NCBI RefSeq assembly: GCF_009827635.1
Contig: NZ_WTYW01000002.1
Coordinates: 248,001-312,000, forward strand
Length of the DNA: 64,000 nt
From: Parapontixanthobacter aurantiacus
Lineage (GTDB): Bacteria; Pseudomonadota; Alphaproteobacteria; Sphingomonadales; Sphingomonadaceae
Direction of reading: 5' to 3'
Shown here: positions 10,111 to 57,401 of the stretch, piece by piece
Numbering within the stretch: the first letter of the stretch is position 1
How the letters are laid out: each line of letters begins with the position of its first letter
Program-made: the position numbers and the translations under genes
The notes under the pieces: generated by a model
The model's database searches: none
What the model saw: the letters and a program-made list of their open reading frames with translations, nothing else
Told to the model about the DNA's origin: nothing

Positions 10111-10209
10111 CCTCGACCAAACGACCGACCGGTCTCGCCGGAACGTCGCATGATCCTGCAGACGCACTAATTCATTCGTCTTTTCGAATATTTGGGCGTA
10201 ATTACGGCG

Positions 10210-11274
10210 ATGATGAAGAGGGGAAGGACATCCGCGATTGTGAAGCGGTTGCCGCATTTCGATGTGGCCGGCCATTTCGCGGAAGGGCCGGCGCGCGTAG
10301 GCGTTCAGATCGGCTTCGGTTCGTTGTGCGCGATCGCGATGATCGCGATTCGCAGCGCGCTCGACGTCATCGTCCCGACCGCCGGTCCGTTCGCACTCGT
10401 CTATCCCACGGTCCTGCTCGCGACGCTTTACGGCAGGTGGCTGGCGGGCATCGTCGCCTATTTCATCTGCTTCTTCTGGGCATGGTTCTACGTCCTGCCG
10501 GCGGTCGGCTCGTTCCATTTCGAGGTGCCAACCGATCCGGCGCGCGTCGCGATCAACGCCTTCGCCGCCCTCATCGTCCTGCTGTTTGCCGAGACGTTCC
10601 GCCATGCGGGCGCCGAATATGCGGAGGAGCGCGACGCGGAAATTGCCCGGCGGCAGCTGCTTCTCGAAGAACTCGACCATCGCACGAAGAACAATTTCGC
10701 CCTGTCGGTCAGCCTCCTCGAAACGCAGCGGCGCCGGGTCGAGAGCGAGGAAGCGTCCGACGCCCTGACCCAGGCAATCGGGCGGCTTCATTCCTTTGCC
10801 AGCGCCTATTCCAATCTTAACGAGAACCAGGGCGAGGGCGCTTCGGTCGAGATGCGTCCTTATCTCGAAGACGTGGTGAACCGCTTCCGCGAAGCAGCGC
10901 TTGACGAAAACGTGGCCGTCGAAACGCATGTCGATGTCGATGAACTGCCGCGCGCCACCGCGGTCGCGATCGGTCTGTTCACAAACGAGGCACTGACCAA
11001 CTGCGCCAAATACGCATTCGCCGAAGGAGAGCGCGGCACGATCCACGTTTCGCTGAAGGAAAGCGGCGACTCATGGCTGTTGCAGATCGCGGATAACGGC
11101 ACACGGAAACCAGCCGCCGCGTCCGAAGCCTTACCGTCATCAGGGCTCGGAACCCGCCTGTTCCAGGCATTCGCCAATCAGGCGGACGCCGAATACCGCA
11201 TCGATCTGGAGGGTCCCGGCTGCACGGTCTCGTTGATCGGCAACTCGGACGAAGACGAAATTTCGCCGTCGTAA
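10210..11274 (+). CDS. HisKA_2-type sensor histidine kinase
   Basis: Membrane sensor kinase. The N-terminus has about four closely spaced hydrophobic segments (roughly residues 28-125 from this start), resembling the DUF4118 membrane module of KdpD-like sensors. The phosphoacceptor segment reads ELDHRTKNNF, with His at about residue 157, the HisKA_2/HWE-like pattern rather than classical HisKA. An HATPase domain follows (TNEALTNCAKYAF, IADNG, GLGTRLFQAF). No response regulator lies next to it. Kinases of this class often feed the PhyR/EcfG general stress response in alphaproteobacteria; that link is inference. The start is uncertain: TTG 10192, ATG 10210 and GTG 10240 are all in frame. Confidence 0.87.
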   Translation: MMKRGRTSAIVKRLPHFDVAGHFAEGPARVGVQIGFGSLCAIAMIAIRSALDVIVPTAGPFALVYPTVLLATLYGRWLAGIVAYFICFFWAWFYVLPAVGSFHFEVPTDPARVAINAFAALIVLLFAETFRHAGAEYAEERDAEIARRQLLLEELDHRTKNNFALSVSLLETQRRRVESEEASDALTQAIGRLHSFASAYSNLNENQGEGASVEMRPYLEDVVNRFREAALDENVAVETHVDVDELPRATAVAIGLFTNEALTNCAKYAFAEGERGTIHVSLKESGDSWLLQIADNGTRKPAAASEALPSSGLGTRLFQAFANQADAEYRIDLEGPGCTVSLIGNSDEDEISPS

Positions 11275-12835: not shown

Positions 12836-13159
12836 ATGACCGAGCAACCGAACACGCAAGCTGCAACCGATCCGCTCGACGAACTCGACGATGCAGTCGC
12901 CGCCGCCGCTTTCCGCCGCCTGGTGCGACATTTGCGGCATCGCCACGATGCGCAGAACATCGACCTCATGGGATTGTCGGGCTTCTGCCGCAATTGCCTG
13001 GCCGACTGGATCAGGGATGCAGGCTATGAAGGCGACAAGGCCGGGGCGCGGGAACTCATCCACGGGATGGGGCAGGACGAATGGAAGGCGACCCGGCAGA
13101 AACCGGCCACGCAGGAGCAGCTCGACCGGATGGAAGCGAGCGTCGCGAAAAACGCTTGA
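12836..13159 (+). CDS. DUF1244 family protein
   Basis: Small cytoplasmic protein of 107 residues. The conserved core IDLMGLSGFCRNCLADW (about residues 42-58), with its two cysteines, is the hallmark of the DUF1244 family, widespread in proteobacteria and without an established function. The start ATG at 12836 follows AAGCAGG. The protein is otherwise charged and helical. It is probably cotranscribed with the GapR-like gene 90 bases downstream, an arrangement that would fit a housekeeping role; that is inference. Confidence 0.85.
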   Translation: MTEQPNTQAATDPLDELDDAVAAAAFRRLVRHLRHRHDAQNIDLMGLSGFCRNCLADWIRDAGYEGDKAGARELIHGMGQDEWKATRQKPATQEQLDRMEASVAKNA

Positions 13160-13249
13160 GGATAATTGTGCTGTCCGGTTCACGCGAACTGTCGGGCTGG
13201 CTATCGAGGCGCCAACCGATTCTCGAAATTTGACCGGAGTTACCCCATC

Positions 13250-13486
13250 ATGGCCGAAGCCACCGACGACCGCCTGCGCCTTCTGATCGAGCGGATCGAG
13301 CGCCTCGAAGAAGAGAAGAAGGGCATCGCCGACGACATTCGCGACGTCTATGCCGAAGCGAAGGCGGTCGGATACGATCCCAAGATCATGCGGCAGGTCG
13401 TGCGTCTCAGGAAGATGAAGCCCGACGATCGCAGCGAGATGGAAACCATCCTCGATACCTACAAGGCGGCGCTCGGCCTCGGCTGA
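13250..13486 (+). CDS. gapR: GapR-like nucleoid-associated protein (DUF2312)
   Basis: Small DNA-binding protein of 78 residues. The sequence [20 protein letters not shown] followed by [24 protein letters not shown] is the DUF2312 signature. Characterised members such as Caulobacter GapR bind overtwisted AT-rich DNA ahead of polymerases and help topoisomerases. The N-terminal half is a coiled coil. The start ATG is preceded by CCGGAGT at a suitable distance. Length and motif order match the family, so the call is firm; the function is by homology. Confidence 0.9.
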
Positions 13487-13546
13487 ACCTTTCCTCGTAT
13501 CACGGAAAGCAATGAGGCGAGCGGGCGTCGTGACGCGTCCGTTCGC

Positions 13547-13572
13547 GGAACGCGTGGCGTCCGGCTTTCGTT
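13547..13572 (+). promoter_or_regulatory. EcfG-type general stress promoter
   Basis: GGAAC at 13547-13551 is separated by exactly 17 bases from CGTT at 13569-13572. This matches the consensus GGAAC-N16/17-CGTT used by the alphaproteobacterial general stress sigma factor EcfG. It lies 36 bases before the ATG of a stress-type SDR, a fitting distance for a leader with ribosome binding site. Motif match only; no expression data. Confidence 0.7.
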
Positions 13573-13607
13573 GATCGGGTGAACCCCGAACACGAAGGAA
13601 CCAGCCC

Positions 13608-14498
13608 ATGAGCCACGAGAACGACACGCTCGACAAGCACGAAAATGCCGATTTCATCGAACCGATTTCCGAAGAACCGCGGATGCCGGGTCATGAAAGC
13701 GAGATGGAGAACAAGCCCGACTGGGAGCCGCGCTATCCCGGCTCCGGCCGAATGAAGGACAAGGTGGCGATCGTCACCGGCGCCGACAGCGGCATCGGGC
13801 GCGCAACCGCCGTCCTGTTCGCGCGCGAAGGTGCGAAGATCGCGATCTCCTATCTCTGCGAACATGACGATGCCGCGAAGACCAAGGAACTGTGCGAAGC
13901 GGAAGGCGCCGAAGCCTTCACGCTCGCCGGCGATCTCGGCAAGAAGGAAGAGGCCGACAAGCTCGTCTCGCAAACGATCGAGAACTTTGGCAAGCTCGAT
14001 GCGCTCATCCAGATCGCAGGAGAGCAGCACCCCGATTACGAAGTCGAGGACATCACCGCCGAGCAGTTGCAGCGCACGTTCCAGTCGAACATCTTCTCGA
14101 TGTTCTATATGGTGCAGGCCGCGCGTCCGCATCTGAAGAAGGGTGCGACCATCGTGAATTGCACCAGCGTGACGATGTACAAGGGTGCGCCGATCCTGCT
14201 CGATTACAGTTCGACCAAGGGCGCTATCACCGCCTTCACTCGCTCGCTGTCCGGCAATCTCGTCGATGACGGTATCCGGGTGAATGCGGTCGCGCCGGGA
14301 CCGATCTGGACGCCGCTCAACCCCTTTGGCGGGCAGCCGGAAGAGAAGATGGACAGCTTCGGCGAAAGCACGCCGATGGGCCGGCCGGGACAGCCGAACG
14401 AAGTGGCGCCAGCCTTCCTGTTCTTGGCCAGCGAAGACTCATCCTATATGTCGGGACAGGTCTTGCATCCCAACGGAGGAATGATCGTCAATGGCTAG
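13608..14498 (+). CDS. SDR-family oxidoreductase, stress-protein type
   Basis: NAD(P)-dependent short-chain dehydrogenase of 296 residues. About 46 residues precede the Rossmann core and are rich in acidic and polar residues, as in the general stress protein 39/YghA branch. The cofactor motif TGADSGIG begins at residue 57, and the catalytic Tyr200-Lys204 pair sits in [17 protein letters not shown] and [19 protein letters not shown] complete the family pattern. The substrate is unknown. The EcfG-type promoter just upstream and the overlapping ybjQ-like gene suggest a stress-induced two-gene unit. Confidence 0.92.
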
Positions 14499-14841
14499 TC
14501 CCTGGAGCAACGAGAAGGGCGGGATGATCGTCTCGACGACGACCACGCTCGAAGGCCGCCCGGTGAAGAAATATCTGGGCGTCGTGACGGGAGAGGTCAT
14601 CGTCGGGGCGAACCTCTTCCGCGACATCTTCGCATCGATCACCGACCTCGTCGGCGGCCGATCGGGCAAATACGAGGAAGTCCTGTCGCGGGCGCGTCAG
14701 GAAGCAATCTCGGAAATGAAGCAGGAGGCGCTGTCGCTCGGCGGCAATGCGGTGATCGGCGTCGATATCGACTACGAGGTCCTGGGCCAGAACGGCTCGA
14801 TGCTGATGGTAAGCGTGTCCGGCACCGCCGTCGTCACCTGA
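14491..14841 (+). CDS. YbjQ/UPF0145 family protein
   Basis: Cytoplasmic protein of 116 residues matching the YbjQ (UPF0145, DUF74) family, a pentamer-forming fold sometimes called heavy-metal-binding from structural work. The core begins [26 protein letters not shown] and continues with [20 protein letters not shown] and [13 protein letters not shown]. The ATG at 14491 lies inside the end of the SDR gene (8-base overlap), with GGAGGA at 14475-14480. An alternative ATG at 14524 gives the shorter family-typical N-terminus. Overlap implies translational coupling with the SDR. Confidence 0.88.
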
Positions 14842-14863
14842 CGCGGCAACACCTCCGCGAAAT

Positions 14864-15634
14864 TTAGCCGCCCGCCAGTTCCCCGGCCAGCATTGCGACA
14901 GAAAGCGCGGTCGCGTTGTGCAGCGCGTGGATGAGCATGCTCGCCCACAATCCGTAATGCACCCGGACATAGCCGAAGATCGCGCCGCCGATGAACTGGG
15001 GTATGACGAAGGGTAGCAGATAGGCGAGCGATCCCTCGTCGTAATTGACGAGGTGGACGAGCGCAAAGGCAAGCGTCGCCAGCCAGAAGAAGACCGGGAA
15101 CAGCTTCGCGAACCAGCCTACGGGTTCGCGCTTTCCGACGCGAAAGCCGATGAAACCGGCCGCTCCGATCGTCAGCACGAGCAAGGCGAACCCCCATAGG
15201 GCGGCGCCCGAGATGCTGGCTTCGGACAGGGAGGTTACGGCGACGAGGCCGAGGCCCAGTACGCCAAGGGCGATCCAGTGTCCGATCCGCCCAGACAGCC
15301 AACTGCGAAACAGCAACTCCTCGGAAACCGGCGCGAACACCACGATCAGCGCGATCGTCTGCGCGTTCCATTCGAGTTTGCCCAAGGCGCTTTCCGGAAG
15401 GTCCAGCCCGAAGGCTACGACCAGCATCGCAAGCGCGATCAGCGCGCTCATCAGCAGGACGTCGAGCACCCACATCCGGCCGATCGCCACGAGACTGGGC
15501 CAGCCGATGCTCGCCGCCCCCGCAGGCAGGCGCGGACGTTTCACGAAAGAGCCGAAATGCCGCCATTCCCCGACCGTCGTGTCGGCCACGACATGGCGTG
15601 GATCGGGATGAAGGCTGGAAACGTCGCTTTTCAT
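14864..15634 (-). CDS. CPBP family intramembrane metalloprotease
   Basis: Polytopic membrane protein of about 256 residues with the three CPBP/Abi protease motifs: EELLFR (EExxxR, residues 105-110), FALVH (FxxxH) and HALHN (HxxxN). These form the metal site of CAAX-type intramembrane proteases. Members process prenylated proteins, bacteriocin precursors or regulators, or are uncharacterised; the role here is unknown. About six to eight hydrophobic segments are visible. The ATG at 15661 would add nine residues; neither start has a strong ribosome binding site. The gene is convergent with the ybjQ-like gene. Confidence 0.85.
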   Translation of the reverse strand: MKSDVSSLHPDPRHVVADTTVGEWRHFGSFVKRPRLPAGAASIGWPSLVAIGRMWVLDVLLMSALIALAMLVVAFGLDLPESALGKLEWNAQTIALIVVFAPVSEELLFRSWLSGRIGHWIALGVLGLGLVAVTSLSEASISGAALWGFALLVLTIGAAGFIGFRVGKREPVGWFAKLFPVFFWLATLAFALVHLVNYDEGSLAYLLPFVIPQFIGGAIFGYVRVHYGLWASMLIHALHNATALSVAMLAGELAGG

Positions 15635-30622: not shown

Positions 30623-32932
30623 ATGGCCGACGATCTTCCCGAACCCAAGCGATATGATGGTGCAACCGGCGGCTGGGGATCGCTCGAAGGGATCAGCCGC
30701 ATCGAATTGTCGGCAAAGGCATCGCCGAGCGCGGCCCTTACGCTCAAGATCCAGAACAAGCCGGGCGGCTATATGTGTTCGTCATGCGCCTGGACGAAGC
30801 CCGAAGATCCGCACGCCTTCGAATTCTGCGAGAATGGGGCGAAGGCGACCTTGTGGGATTTGACCTCGGACCGTTGCACGCCGGAATTTTTCGAGCAGCA
30901 TACCGAGAGCGAACTTCGCAAATGGGGCGATTATCGCCTCGAGAAGTTAGGGCGGCTGACCGAGCCGCTGCGTTATAACCGGGCAACCGACAAGTACGAA
31001 CGGGCCAGCTGGACCGAAGCGTTCCAGGCGATCGGCGCGAAACTAAGGACGATGGAGCCCAAGTCGGTCACCTTCTATGCAAGCGGGAAGGCGGCGCTCG
31101 AACCGTCCTACCTCTATGCCCTTTTCGCGCGCGCTTACGGGCACAACAACCTGCCCGACAGTTCCAACATGTGTCACGAGACGACTTCGGTGGGACTGAA
31201 GAAAGTCATCGGGTCCCCGGTCGGCACTTGCCAGATGGACGATTTCGAGCACGTCGATGCAATCTTCTATCTCGGGCAGAACCCCGGGACCAACAGTCCG
31301 CGTATCCTTCACACGTTGCAGAACGCGGTAAAGCGCGGTTGCAAGATCATCGTCTTCAATCCGCTAAAGGAGAAGGGGCTGCGCGAATTCGTCAATCCTC
31401 AAAATCCAGTGCAGATGACGATCGGCAAGCCGACCAGGATCGATCACATGTATTGTCAGGTGCGACCGGGGGGCGATCTCGCGGCGCTGATGGGCGTCTG
31501 CAAATACGTGATCGAGCAGGACCGGCTGGCGCAGGAAGCGGAGTGTTCGCGCATCCTCGATACCGGTTTCATCGAACAGCACACAACGGGTCTCGAAGCG
31601 CTTGTCGCGAAGGTCGAACAGACAGACTGGCCTGAACTCGAACAAGCGAGCGGGCTCACACGCGGGGAGATGGAACGGGCTGGCGAAGTCTATGTGAAAG
31701 CCGGCAATGTGATGGGCATTTACGGCATGGGTGTCACCCAGCATGTCCACGGCTCGCAGACGATCGGCATGCTCGTCAATCTGCTGCTGTTAAGAGGCAA
31801 TATCGGGCGGAAAGGCGCCGGATGCTCGCCCATTCGCGGCCATTCAAACGTTCAGGGTCAACGAACCGTCGGGATCACCGAGAAGGTCGAACTCGCCCCG
31901 GTCGAGAAATATCGCGAACTATTCGACCTCGAGACCCCGCAGGAGGACGGCCATACCACGGTGGAATTCCTTGAAGCGCTTCTTTCGGGGGAGAACAAGG
32001 GTTATGTCGGTCTTGGCGGCAATCTTGCAAATGCGGTGCCAGACCACGAACGCGTCCACCGTGCCTGGAGCGAAATGGAACTGACGGTTCATGTCGCGAC
32101 GAAGCTCAACACTACTCACTGCATTCCCGGCCGTGAAAGCTGGATCCTGCCCTGTCTCGTTCGTGCAGAGCGGGACAACCAGGCGAGCGGCAGTCAATGG
32201 GTCAGCATGGAAGACAGTTTTAGCCATATCTACGGCAGCCGTTCCGATCGCGAGCCGGCGAGCGAGCACCTGAAAAGCGAAACGGCAATCGTCTGCGGCC
32301 TCGCCAAGGCTACGCTGGGGGATGCCTTTCCCAAACTGGCGTGGGACACCTGGACGGAAGATTACGCGCGCATCCGCGACTGCATCGCCGCTACCTATCC
32401 CGATCAGTTCCACGACATGAATGCGAGGATGAACGAACCCGGCGGGTTTTATCGCGGCAATGCAGCGCGCGAGCGGGTGTGGAAGACGGCGAGCGGCAAG
32501 GCCGAGTTCACCGATCCCACCGTGCTTAACGCTTGCGGGATCGGAGACGCGGAGGGGCGTTATCACCTGGCGACCCTGCGTTCGAACGATCAGTTCAATA
32601 CGACGATATACGGCCATTCCGACAGGTTACGCGGCTTGTCGGGGGACCGCCGCATCGTGATGATGCGACCCGAGGACATGGTCGCGGAGGGATTTGCGGA
32701 AGACGATCTCGTCGACGTTACGACCGACCTGCCCGACGATCATGCCGCGAATGACGGTCAAACGCGCCGCGTTTCCGGTTTCCGGGTCGTGCCTTACGAC
32801 CTGCCCAAGGGAACTCTGGCGGGCTATTTTCCCGAACTCAATCCGCTGGTGCCATTGCAGTATCACGAGGAACTGTCGAAGACACCGGCCAGCAAGGGCA
32901 TTCCGGTCCGCCTTGCCAGAACGAGCACCTAG
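30623..32932 (+). CDS. FdhF/YdeP family molybdopterin oxidoreductase
   Basis: Large molybdopterin enzyme of 769 residues related to formate dehydrogenase alpha subunits. An iron-sulfur motif is near the N-terminus (Cys52, Cys55, Cys69, in MCSSC...FCENGAKA). The segment SSNMCHETTSVGL places Cys184 where E. coli FdhF has selenocysteine, so a Mo-Cys ligand is expected. GMGVTQHVHGSQTIGMLVNLLLLRGNIGRKGAG and the C-terminal dinucleotide-binding domain are typical. This branch usually acts without FdhB/FdhC partners; none are present here. E. coli YdeP is linked to acid resistance; the reaction is not established. It follows fdhD and mobA. Confidence 0.9.
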   Translation: MADDLPEPKRYDGATGGWGSLEGISRIELSAKASPSAALTLKIQNKPGGYMCSSCAWTKPEDPHAFEFCENGAKATLWDLTSDRCTPEFFEQHTESELRKWGDYRLEKLGRLTEPLRYNRATDKYERASWTEAFQAIGAKLRTMEPKSVTFYASGKAALEPSYLYALFARAYGHNNLPDSSNMCHETTSVGLKKVIGSPVGTCQMDDFEHVDAIFYLGQNPGTNSPRILHTLQNAVKRGCKIIVFNPLKEKGLREFVNPQNPVQMTIGKPTRIDHMYCQVRPGGDLAALMGVCKYVIEQDRLAQEAECSRILDTGFIEQHTTGLEALVAKVEQTDWPELEQASGLTRGEMERAGEVYVKAGNVMGIYGMGVTQHVHGSQTIGMLVNLLLLRGNIGRKGAGCSPIRGHSNVQGQRTVGITEKVELAPVEKYRELFDLETPQEDGHTTVEFLEALLSGENKGYVGLGGNLANAVPDHERVHRAWSEMELTVHVATKLNTTHCIPGRESWILPCLVRAERDNQASGSQWVSMEDSFSHIYGSRSDREPASEHLKSETAIVCGLAKATLGDAFPKLAWDTWTEDYARIRDCIAATYPDQFHDMNARMNEPGGFYRGNAARERVWKTASGKAEFTDPTVLNACGIGDAEGRYHLATLRSNDQFNTTIYGHSDRLRGLSGDRRIVMMRPEDMVAEGFAEDDLVDVTTDLPDDHAANDGQTRRVSGFRVVPYDLPKGTLAGYFPELNPLVPLQYHEELSKTPASKGIPVRLARTST

Positions 32933-37500: not shown

Positions 37501-38581
37501 GGAGACTATTCAAACGGCGGACGATGAGCGCTCCTGTCGCGTCGAACCTTTCCTGCGAGAATTTCTCCAGCACTCGCTTGCGGGCTGCAATCCCCATCTC
37601 AGAAAGGTCTTCAGGATTGTTCAGCAGATTGCGGAGCGCCGCAGCCAGCGAATGAGCGTCGCCAGTTTCCACCACGCGCCCGATGGCAGGTGTGTCGACT
37701 GTGAACGGCATCTCGCCTGTTCGTGAGACGATGACGGGGAGGCCTGCCTCCATCGCTTCGTGCGCGGCGATGCAGAAACCTTCGCGGCGGGAGGGCTGCA
37801 CGTAGAGGTGAAGTTTCTTCAGATATTCCGAGGTGTCCTTAGCGAATCCGACAAAGTCGATCGTGTCCACCCTCTCGGCTCTCGCGCGTTCGCGCAAGGC
37901 TTGCTCCTCCGCTCCTGTTCCGGCGATCGTGATGCGGTAGGGCGTTTTCGGGCAGGAGGGCTCAGCGTGCATGATCGCGAGCGCGTCGATCAATATGTCG
38001 TAGCCCTTGTTGGGATGAAGCCTACCGAGACTTCCGATCCGCAAGGTTTCTCCACTGTGCCAAGGCTGTGCCTGGGGTGCATCCCGTCTGGCAGCAAAGA
38101 TCGGCCAGGTGACGACACGCTGCGGGGCAAGACCTAACCGCTTGGCAGTCAGCATGGCGACCTGTTCGCTATCTGCGACCCAGATGTCGGATGCATCTGC
38201 CCGCCAACGCAACAACCGCTCGTTCCAGGGTTTCAGAAAGGCATTGTGCTGCCAACTCACGACCGGGATTCCGAGCCTTCTGCCAACCACCTGCCCGAGG
38301 AGGGTCGCGCGCGTCAGAGAGGTCCAGATCGCATCCGCGCCCCATTCTCGCGTCTGTCCCAGAAGCCAGCGATAGGCGGCCAAGTGTTCGCCTTCGCCGC
38401 CTTCGCGAACGACGGGTTCCACGCCCTCGTTCCGCAAGCGTTCCACGGCCAGTCCGTCACGCCGGGTCAGCGCCAGGACGCGCACCTGCGCACCTGCTTT
38501 CTCCAGAGCCTGGACGATTTTGGGAAGCGGCGTTTGCGCACCGCCGCCCTCCATCGAATTAATGGCATAGGCTATGCGCAT
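37487..38581 (-). CDS. GT4-family glycosyltransferase
   Basis: Glycosyltransferase of 364 residues. The start MRIAYAINSMEGGGAQTPLP holds the glycine-rich acceptor loop of GT4 enzymes, and the C-terminal half has RIGSLGRLHPNKGYDILIDAL and REGFCIAAHEAMEAGLPVIVSRTGEMPF with the E-x7-E donor motif. It begins inside the end of the glycerophosphotransferase-like gene (10-base overlap), so the two are cotranscribed and presumably build the same surface polymer. Confidence 0.9.
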   Translation of the reverse strand: MRIAYAINSMEGGGAQTPLPKIVQALEKAGAQVRVLALTRRDGLAVERLRNEGVEPVVREGGEGEHLAAYRWLLGQTREWGADAIWTSLTRATLLGQVVGRRLGIPVVSWQHNAFLKPWNERLLRWRADASDIWVADSEQVAMLTAKRLGLAPQRVVTWPIFAARRDAPQAQPWHSGETLRIGSLGRLHPNKGYDILIDALAIMHAEPSCPKTPYRITIAGTGAEEQALRERARAERVDTIDFVGFAKDTSEYLKKLHLYVQPSRREGFCIAAHEAMEAGLPVIVSRTGEMPFTVDTPAIGRVVETGDAHSLAAALRNLLNNPEDLSEMGIAARKRVLEKFSQERFDATGALIVRRLNSLLNQR

Positions 38582-56151: not shown

Positions 56152-57401
56152 CAGGCGGCTCCCTTATTCTGCCCGCTTGCAACGGCCGTCGCCTGTTCGA
56201 CGGCGGGAGGCGTTGCGAACTTGGGTTCGCGCGGCATTTCCAGCCCGCGTTCGGCGATGATGTTCTTCTGGATCTGGGCGGTGCCTCCACCGATGATCAG
56301 ACCAAGCTGGAACATGTAGTTCCACTGCCAGGCACCGTCTTCGCGCTCGCGCTCGCTTCCGTGATAGAGTATGCCCATCTCGCCCATTGCGTCGATCGCG
56401 AGCGCGGAAATCTGATGGGCGAGCTCACAGCTCTGCAGCTTCACGACAAGTTTCGCCATGCCGCCGGCATCCCCCCTAAGGCTGTTCGACAGGATGCGCA
56501 TGCCGTTGAATTTCATCGCCGCGACTTCGGCTTGCAATGCAACCAGCCGGTCACGCAGAACGGCGTTGTCCATTGCGCAACCCTGGCCGATGCGTTCTTT
56601 TTGCATCAGCCTGACCAGCGCCTGGAGCCGGTTTTCCAGTGCATCGGGGTCGCCCAGCATGCCACGTTCATGGCCCAGTGTGGCATTGGCCACGTACCAC
56701 CCCTGCCCGCGCTGCCCGACGATCTGATCCAGGGGAACCCGCACGTCGGTAAAGAACGTTTCATTGAACTCGGCATGACCGGTCATGGTCTTGAGTGGTC
56801 GGACCTCGATCCCTGGTGTGTCCATCGAGAAGATCAAGTAGGAGATGCCGCCGTGCTTGGGCGCGTCCGGTTCGGTCCGAACAAGGCAAAAGATCATGTC
56901 CGCCTGCTTGGCCGTGCTGGTCCAGATCTTCTGTCCGTTGATGACAAAGTCGCCATTTTCGACGCGGGCGCTGGTCTTGAGCGCGGCGAGGTCCGATCCC
57001 GCTCCAGGTTCCGAATATCCCTGACACCAGACTATCTCGCCATTTAGGGTCGGCTCGATCCATTGCCGTTTCTGGGCTTCGGTTCCGAGTTCCAGCAGCG
57101 TGGGAACGAGCATGGAAATGCCCTGGTTCGCAAGGCCTGCGGGGATGCCAGCGCGCGAAAATTCCTCGGCAATGATCCGCGATTTCAGGATGTCCGGCTC
57201 GGCTCCGTATCCGCCGTATTCCTTGGGAATCGTACGCGCCGTGTAACCATGCAGGATCAACAGCTTTTGCCATTCGACGGCTTCGGGGGAAGGGCGCGCG
57301 GCACGGCCTTGGCCATCGGGTGCGCGGTGACCGTGGGTTTGCAGGAACTGGCGCACTTCCTCGCGAAACGCGTCATACTGGGGTCCGTAGTCGAGATCCA
57401 T
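56151..57401 (-). CDS. Acyl-CoA dehydrogenase, large/catalytic subunit
   Basis: Acyl-CoA dehydrogenase of 416 residues with conserved FAD-binding blocks: WCQGYSEPGAGSDLAALKT, KIWTSTAKQADMIFCLVRT, and GGGTAQIQKNIIAERGLEMPRE near the C-terminus. The stretch NATLGHERGML places Glu where the alternative catalytic base occurs. Together with the overlapping small partner it probably makes a heterotetramer acting on a bulky CoA thioester. It starts six bases after the DUF35 gene. Confidence 0.93.
   Translation of the reverse strand: MDLDYGPQYDAFREEVRQFLQTHGHRAPDGQGRAARPSPEAVEWQKLLILHGYTARTIPKEYGGYGAEPDILKSRIIAEEFSRAGIPAGLANQGISMLVPTLLELGTEAQKRQWIEPTLNGEIVWCQGYSEPGAGSDLAALKTSARVENGDFVINGQKIWTSTAKQADMIFCLVRTEPDAPKHGGISYLIFSMDTPGIEVRPLKTMTGHAEFNETFFTDVRVPLDQIVGQRGQGWYVANATLGHERGMLGDPDALENRLQALVRLMQKERIGQGCAMDNAVLRDRLVALQAEVAAMKFNGMRILSNSLRGDAGGMAKLVVKLQSCELAHQISALAIDAMGEMGILYHGSEREREDGAWQWNYMFQLGLIIGGGTAQIQKNIIAERGLEMPREPKFATPPAVEQATAVASGQNKGAA

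Follow-up and report, generated by a model that had tools for sequence, protein, structure and literature searches.

The EcfG-type promoter upstream of an SDR oxidoreductase gene in the window (the whole stretch of 64,000 nucleotides of Parapontixanthobacter aurantiacus DNA analyzed here) is with high probability real and of a familiar, ordinary type, and EcfG very probably controls the SDR. More can be learned from the gene order: gapR and ybjQ are commonly paired in the host's family, and here the SDR breaks up this pair. The explanation that we favor, and judge likely from sequence comparison, is that an EcfG (ECF15) promoter drives the SDR gene, that the transcript reaches ybjQ, and that the SDR was inserted into the gapR-ybjQ interval.

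In the PhyR-NepR-EcfG partner switch, stress leads phosphorylated PhyR to bind NepR, which frees EcfG. The promoter at 13547-13572 would bring SDR expression into this general stress response (GSR): EcfG-bound RNA polymerase would start 6 to 8 nt after CGTT, near 13579, to give a leader of about 30 nt, and the SDR transcript very probably runs on into ybjQ. Table 1 gives the coordinates of the features.

Table 1. Features of the gapR-SDR-ybjQ locus and related loci (window positions, unless a locus is named)
Feature	Position	Strand	Basis
DUF1244 gene, upstream of gapR	12836-13159	+	
gapR, GapR-like DNA-binding domain	13250..13486	+	PF10073 5.3e-36
-35 element GGAAC of EcfG-type promoter	13547..13551	+	Sequence read; GGAAC in 40/40 GapR-linked SDR upstream regions
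-10 element CGTT, spacer 17	13569..13572	+	Sequence read
AAGGA, likely SDR ribosome-binding site, 8 nt before ATG	13595..13599	+	Sequence read, inference
SDR oxidoreductase, 296 aa	13608..14498	+	Pfam adh_short_C2 2e-58; NCBIfam
GGAGG, likely ybjQ ribosome-binding site in SDR end, 11 nt before ybjQ	14475..14479	+	Sequence read, inference
8-bp overlap ATGGCTAG, SDR stop/ybjQ start	14491..14498	+	Sequence read
ybjQ (UPF0145), 116 aa, Pfam domain from residue 12	14491..14841	+	Pfam YbjQ_1
Lys-to-Arg SDR homologs, outside host's family	L189-L195, L197, L198, L202		

The promoter and its conservation upstream of SDR relatives

A preliminary description of this DNA had noted GGAAC-N17-CGTT shortly 5' of the SDR gene and an overlap between that gene and a YbjQ-family gene. 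Both are present: the first is a strict EcfG-type match on the plus strand that ends 35 nt before the ATG at 13608, and the second spans 8 bp. A hairpin lies directly 5' of the -35 box. We considered and rejected a terminator in the gapR-SDR interval, as the 74-nt stretch (-29.9 kcal/mol; z -0.78) folds no better than shuffles and no terminator-like site was found there on the plus strand.

Of 397 genomes of the host's family, 148 have relatives of the SDR (E up to 1e-90), and we read 90 of the 150 places listed, namely 30 and every second one of the other 120. Because the -10 box has been published as variable (PMC7083833), we also scored a relaxed version of the motif, GGAAC-N16/17-nnTT, at up to 130 nt before the start. 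The relaxed motif precedes 53 of the 90 loci and the strict form 10; on the same loci, the reverse-complemented pattern was found at 2 and the reversed pattern at 6, while composition shuffles gave a mean of 0.7 and a maximum of 3. Genomic context divides the loci sharply: the relaxed motif is present at all 40 GapR-linked SDR loci and at only 13 of the remaining 50, so stress control would not be a property of every copy. With no anchoring to the motif, GGAAC is the sole 5-mer present in all 40 GapR-linked regions (in shuffles, no 5-mer reaches more than 23). The spacer in these regions is 17 nt in 32 and 16 nt in 8, and the -10 element varies (GGTT, 11; CATT, 8; CGTT, 7; others, 14). These results, together with the GSR regulators found in the genome (below), strongly support the earlier proposal of an EcfG-type promoter for the SDR.

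PMC3892343 describes EcfG as exclusive to the Alphaproteobacteria. The relaxed motif was found at 11 of 16 SDR loci from Alphaproteobacteria outside the family, several of which are close relatives of one another. Among 80 SDR loci from named organisms, it precedes 15 of 30 alphaproteobacterial versus 1 of 50 non-alphaproteobacterial genes (p 2.9e-7, from counts that ignore shared ancestry; the named and unnamed sets share species, and related loci are not independent). Seven of the eight named GapR-linked loci, some from the same species, have the relaxed motif; one named gapR-linked relative (L233) keeps GGAAC and lacks a correctly spaced nnTT. The exact CGTT is uncommon in relatives, since the strict form that marks 10 of the 90 family loci recurs at 1 of the 30 named alphaproteobacterial ones. 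The nearest named SDR (92%) is that of Qipengyuania atrilutea, Erythrobacteraceae (record name Actirhodobacter atriluteus).

The SDR interrupts a gapR-ybjQ neighborhood

We found ybjQ in 69 of 119 family genomes (own included), and in 63 of these gapR precedes it on the same strand at a distance of ≤3 kb. The two genes are within 150 nt in 35 of the 63, further apart with no close SDR in 17, and separated by an SDR in 11; "no close SDR" here means none at E up to 1e-90, with a weaker tblastn search (1e-5) covering the 30 ybjQ loci that were read. Another seven genomes have gapR-SDR with no ybjQ match. Seen from the SDR, ybjQ lies ≤300 nt downstream at 24 of the 90 loci, at spacings that range across the family from overlap to 237 nt, and 13 of the 24 adjacent pairs overlap by tblastn coordinates. 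A conserved SDR-ybjQ stress operon was thus not found in the family (24 of 90 SDR loci; 11 of 69 ybjQ genomes). In the window, a gene for a CAAX-type protease follows ybjQ on the opposite strand.

Reading the best 30 of the 69 ybjQ loci, we found seven with an SDR, each with the relaxed motif between gapR and ybjQ; none of the other 23, which lack the SDR, has an EcfG motif ≤150 nt before ybjQ. Outside the family but within the class, where 28 of 56 listed ybjQ loci were read, none has the motif and none has gapR within about 1.5 kb, although a very distant gapR could be missed. We therefore reject ybjQ as a general stress gene on the strength of the 0/23 and 0/28 counts. The two-gene stress operon of the preliminary description survives in its first half, the EcfG promoter of the SDR; as a general rule the two-gene operon falls, because the usual neighbor of ybjQ is gapR (63/69) and the motif is absent from all 23 SDR-less family loci.

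Four of the 17 wide gapR-ybjQ gaps (>150 nt, SDR absent) were looked at, and none holds this SDR. Other frames occupy these four intervals: L052 and L057 have opposite-strand frames of 188 and 212 aa that are related to each other (32% identity over 181 aa), L041 has an opposite-strand CAAX-protease-like frame, and L054 has a same-strand glutathione-transferase-like frame, the last two named by eye.

A quick tree of 107 SDRs places the GapR-linked sequences in nearly one clade of 40 rows (support, 99), made up of 39 linked loci and L146, whose gapR is 2.3 kb off; the exception, L178, falls outside on a long branch. Adjacency to ybjQ requires 10 changes on this tree, which marks the SDR-ybjQ pair as unstable, and the motif label requires 13.

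The main competing explanation, which we think unlikely but worth keeping in view, is that the EcfG promoter serves the SDR only and that ybjQ is expressed outside the stress response, mainly by read-through from gapR or from its own promoter. It fits the observations that gapR is the usual partner of ybjQ (at a gap of ≤150 nt in 35 of the 69 ybjQ genomes), that ybjQ without the SDR is never preceded by an EcfG motif in the two samples above, and that SDR-ybjQ spacing and adjacency vary as much as they do. It fits the window itself less well: ybjQ starts inside the SDR gene, with GGAGG 11 nt before its start, overlap recurs in over half of the adjacent pairs (13/24), and neither a terminator-like site on the plus strand nor a sigma-70-like site was found in 13100-15000. 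Because of the 8-bp overlap, cotranscription of SDR and ybjQ is likely in this genome, and because ybjQ starts inside the SDR end, the two genes are probably translationally coupled here.

Under the explanation that we favor, in which the transcript reaches ybjQ, the SDR and its promoter would have entered an existing gapR-ybjQ neighborhood in an ancestor within the family, and this entry would have placed ybjQ under general-stress control in this lineage only. The simplest history would be a single arrival of the EcfG-driven SDR between gapR and ybjQ, after which some genomes lost the SDR or ybjQ; alternatively, the present pattern may reflect repeated loss from an older gapR-SDR-ybjQ state. 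At most, the SDR-ybjQ stress unit appears to hold for this lineage. More specifically, and tentatively enough that we would stop just short of favoring it, the locus may represent regulatory capture: in an erythrobacter-like ancestor, a stress-controlled SDR that brought its own EcfG promoter would have moved a single time into the space between gapR and ybjQ and thereby recruited ybjQ as second gene of a general stress operon. If so, ybjQ would not be a stress gene in other contexts, and the SDR would have landed flush against it, with an overlap of 8 bp.

General stress response regulators in the genome

A single NepR in the genome scores over the Pfam cut-off, and its gene is immediately followed by that of a 202-aa ECF sigma. 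Among the 25 NCBIfam models shown, there is none whose equivalog or subfamily cut-off this sigma reaches; we call it EcfG because it adjoins nepR. Nearby are genes for an HWE/CHASE kinase, PhyR (over the Pfam cut-off), and a receiver-only protein. The 8-kb regulator stretch contains three strict motifs versus 0.20 expected: one lies 92 nt before nepR, one lies 25 nt before the receiver frame, and one lies about 28 nt before the ATG taken as the phyR start (the mechanical frame begins at an earlier TTG inside the motif). We also scanned ten hand-picked proteins behind other strict motifs against Pfam; three had no match and seven matched, to OsmC, MscS, DJ-1/PfpI, CBS, fasciclin, a TUDOR-like domain, and a sigma-70-type factor.

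Several further genes may touch on this circuit. In the window, 2.3 kb upstream of the SDR promoter, 10192-11274 (+) encodes a HisKA_2/HWE histidine kinase with a DUF4118 region; it is weakly PhyK-like, far below the PhyK cut-off, and is a candidate GSR-activating kinase. At G000:C1:675456-675557 (L123), the PhyR sigma-like domain is matched again above its cut-off (32.6 bits), possibly by a second EcfG-type sigma. At L005 (G000:C1:190058-193083), a strict EcfG motif, scored as inside another frame in the placement count below, lies 129 nt before a 301-aa sigma-70-type frame (Pfam). We take this frame to be RpoH-like, and its position suggests a cascade from the GSR to a heat-shock sigma.

The second PhyR sigma-like domain match (at G000:C1:675456) also counts in favor of the rival proposal that the SDR site is read not by canonical EcfG but by another ECF sigma whose consensus overlaps, as does the situation reported in Sinorhizobium meliloti, where the RpoE2 regulon includes 27 of the 40 target genes of RpoE6 (ECF26; PMC6180224). 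We consider such a sigma improbable here, since the strict motif also precedes the genome's own nepR-ecfG and phyR, as EcfG autoregulation predicts.

Motif counts and placement

Taken alone, the motif match in the window is weak evidence. With a spacer of 16 to 18, the window has four pattern matches versus 1.66 expected, a number reached in 6 of 100 shuffles; the three besides the SDR site are at 38408-38433 (-), which lies within a long frame and is probably due to chance, 30999-31025 (-), and 56734-56760 (+). The strict pattern (spacer 16 to 17) has 42 matches in the whole genome versus 67 for the reversed control. We rejected the motif count as evidence because neither the window nor the genome number is clearly above chance, and relied on placement and conservation instead. 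Intergenic position ≤150 nt upstream of a same-strand start was found for 16 of 30 motif loci (of 42) versus 1 of 30 control loci (of 67; Fisher p 2.3e-5), as scored with a rough, home-made gene caller that counted the window's own site as a miss by placing it inside a read-through pyruvate-kinase frame. The genome-wide scan suggested in the preliminary description thus speaks for the motif by where its matches lie 5' of genes and not by how many there are. Conservation is stronger evidence for the motif than either placement or count. That the SDR site is a chance match with no promoter function gains some color from the commonness of the pattern (fewer genome matches than the control and no significant excess in the window) but is very improbable when the relaxed form precedes all 40 GapR-linked relatives versus 1 of 50 non-alphaproteobacterial homologs.

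The SDR and YbjQ proteins

The SDR has the features of a classical SDR: a glycine-rich nucleotide motif, a Ser-Tyr-Lys active site, and a Pfam score over cut-off. Glycines G58, G62, and G64, together with N161, S187, and Y200, are present in all 107 aligned homologs, and K204 is present in 97. Given the invariance of S187, Y200, and N161 and the near constancy of K204, the window SDR should be catalytically competent; from its family and active-site residues, it probably uses NAD(P)(H) to reduce or oxidize a carbonyl or alcohol generated under stress. Its best-scoring NCBIfam model is PRK06701, of which it is not a member (373.5 bits, below the cut-off of 413). The protein belongs to the same SDR type as structures 3i3o/3ijr, 3r3s, and 5jyd/5u8p, with nearly full-length matches (3i3o, 6.6e-89). 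Among 16 SDR homologs from other families of Alphaproteobacteria, 10 have Arg in place of the active-site Lys of YxxxK (Table 1), and eight of these 10 lie behind an EcfG-type motif.

YbjQ matches PF01906 (YbjQ_1) over profile positions 1-102 of 103 (1.7e-38; 131.8 bits versus a cut-off of 23). A P-W tail before the YbjQ domain is common to 27 of 30 relatives' proteins (own included), which supports the ybjQ start at 14491. Residues 10-116 match the YbjQ/UPF0145 structure 1y2i (1.9e-38), and 1y2i, 1vr4, and 2gtc each have five chains; the window ybjQ differs from these in that it overlaps an SDR gene. YbjQ relatives are described as pentamers that share the fold of RcsF, DUF1471, and an archaeal Se-binding protein (PMC4092069), and YbjQ is, by analogy, probably a small pentameric protein with an RcsF-like fold.

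Two functions were considered for YbjQ. Heavy-metal binding, as in the family name, lacks Cys/His support: the window protein has neither residue, and among 30 relatives' proteins Cys occurs in 10 and His in 8, with one Cys position recurring in 5; carboxylates may instead serve as ligands. We reject thiamin phosphate synthase activity, which belongs to YjbQ, a different family. PMC7084401 gives this role to "YbjQ," but none of the five NCBIfam models matched by the window protein is a thiamin model.

Comparison with known regulons and significance

The EcfG/GSR regulon of Sphingopyxis granuli TFA (PMC7083833) resembles the situation here in its GGAAC-N16-CGTT-type promoters with a conserved -35 and a variable -10, in having its regulators within the regulon, and in its osmC and mscS members; in the main text of that paper, the terms short-chain, dehydrogenase, oxidoreductase, and YbjQ are absent. 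The EcfG regulon of Sphingomonas melonis Fr1 (PMC6599016) has the same promoter type, and its Pak-SdrG-PhyT-PhyR relay may have a counterpart in the receiver gene near phyR here; the terms short-chain and YbjQ are absent from its main text. In S. meliloti, overexpressing the GSR sigma RpoE2 increased expression of SMa0187, a short-chain dehydrogenase whose likeness to the window protein is one of SDR class, and RpoE6 raises it too (PMC6180224). We found no report of the SDR-ybjQ arrangement in the open-license listings and passages covered, supplements aside.

Many GSR targets in Sphingomonadales are unannotated (PMC7083833), and the SDR adds a well-supported predicted EcfG target of a defined enzyme class to the GSR of this order; the same EcfG control is predicted for some SDRs elsewhere in the Alphaproteobacteria. 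The neighborhood comparison corrects a tempting inference, in that ybjQ goes with gapR as a neighbor and has no conserved stress partnership with the SDR, and lineages with and without the SDR constitute a natural experiment on ybjQ regulation. Had a stress-controlled SDR indeed captured ybjQ, the gapR-ybjQ pairing itself (63/69) would hint that YbjQ and the nucleoid protein GapR are linked in a way not yet recognized.
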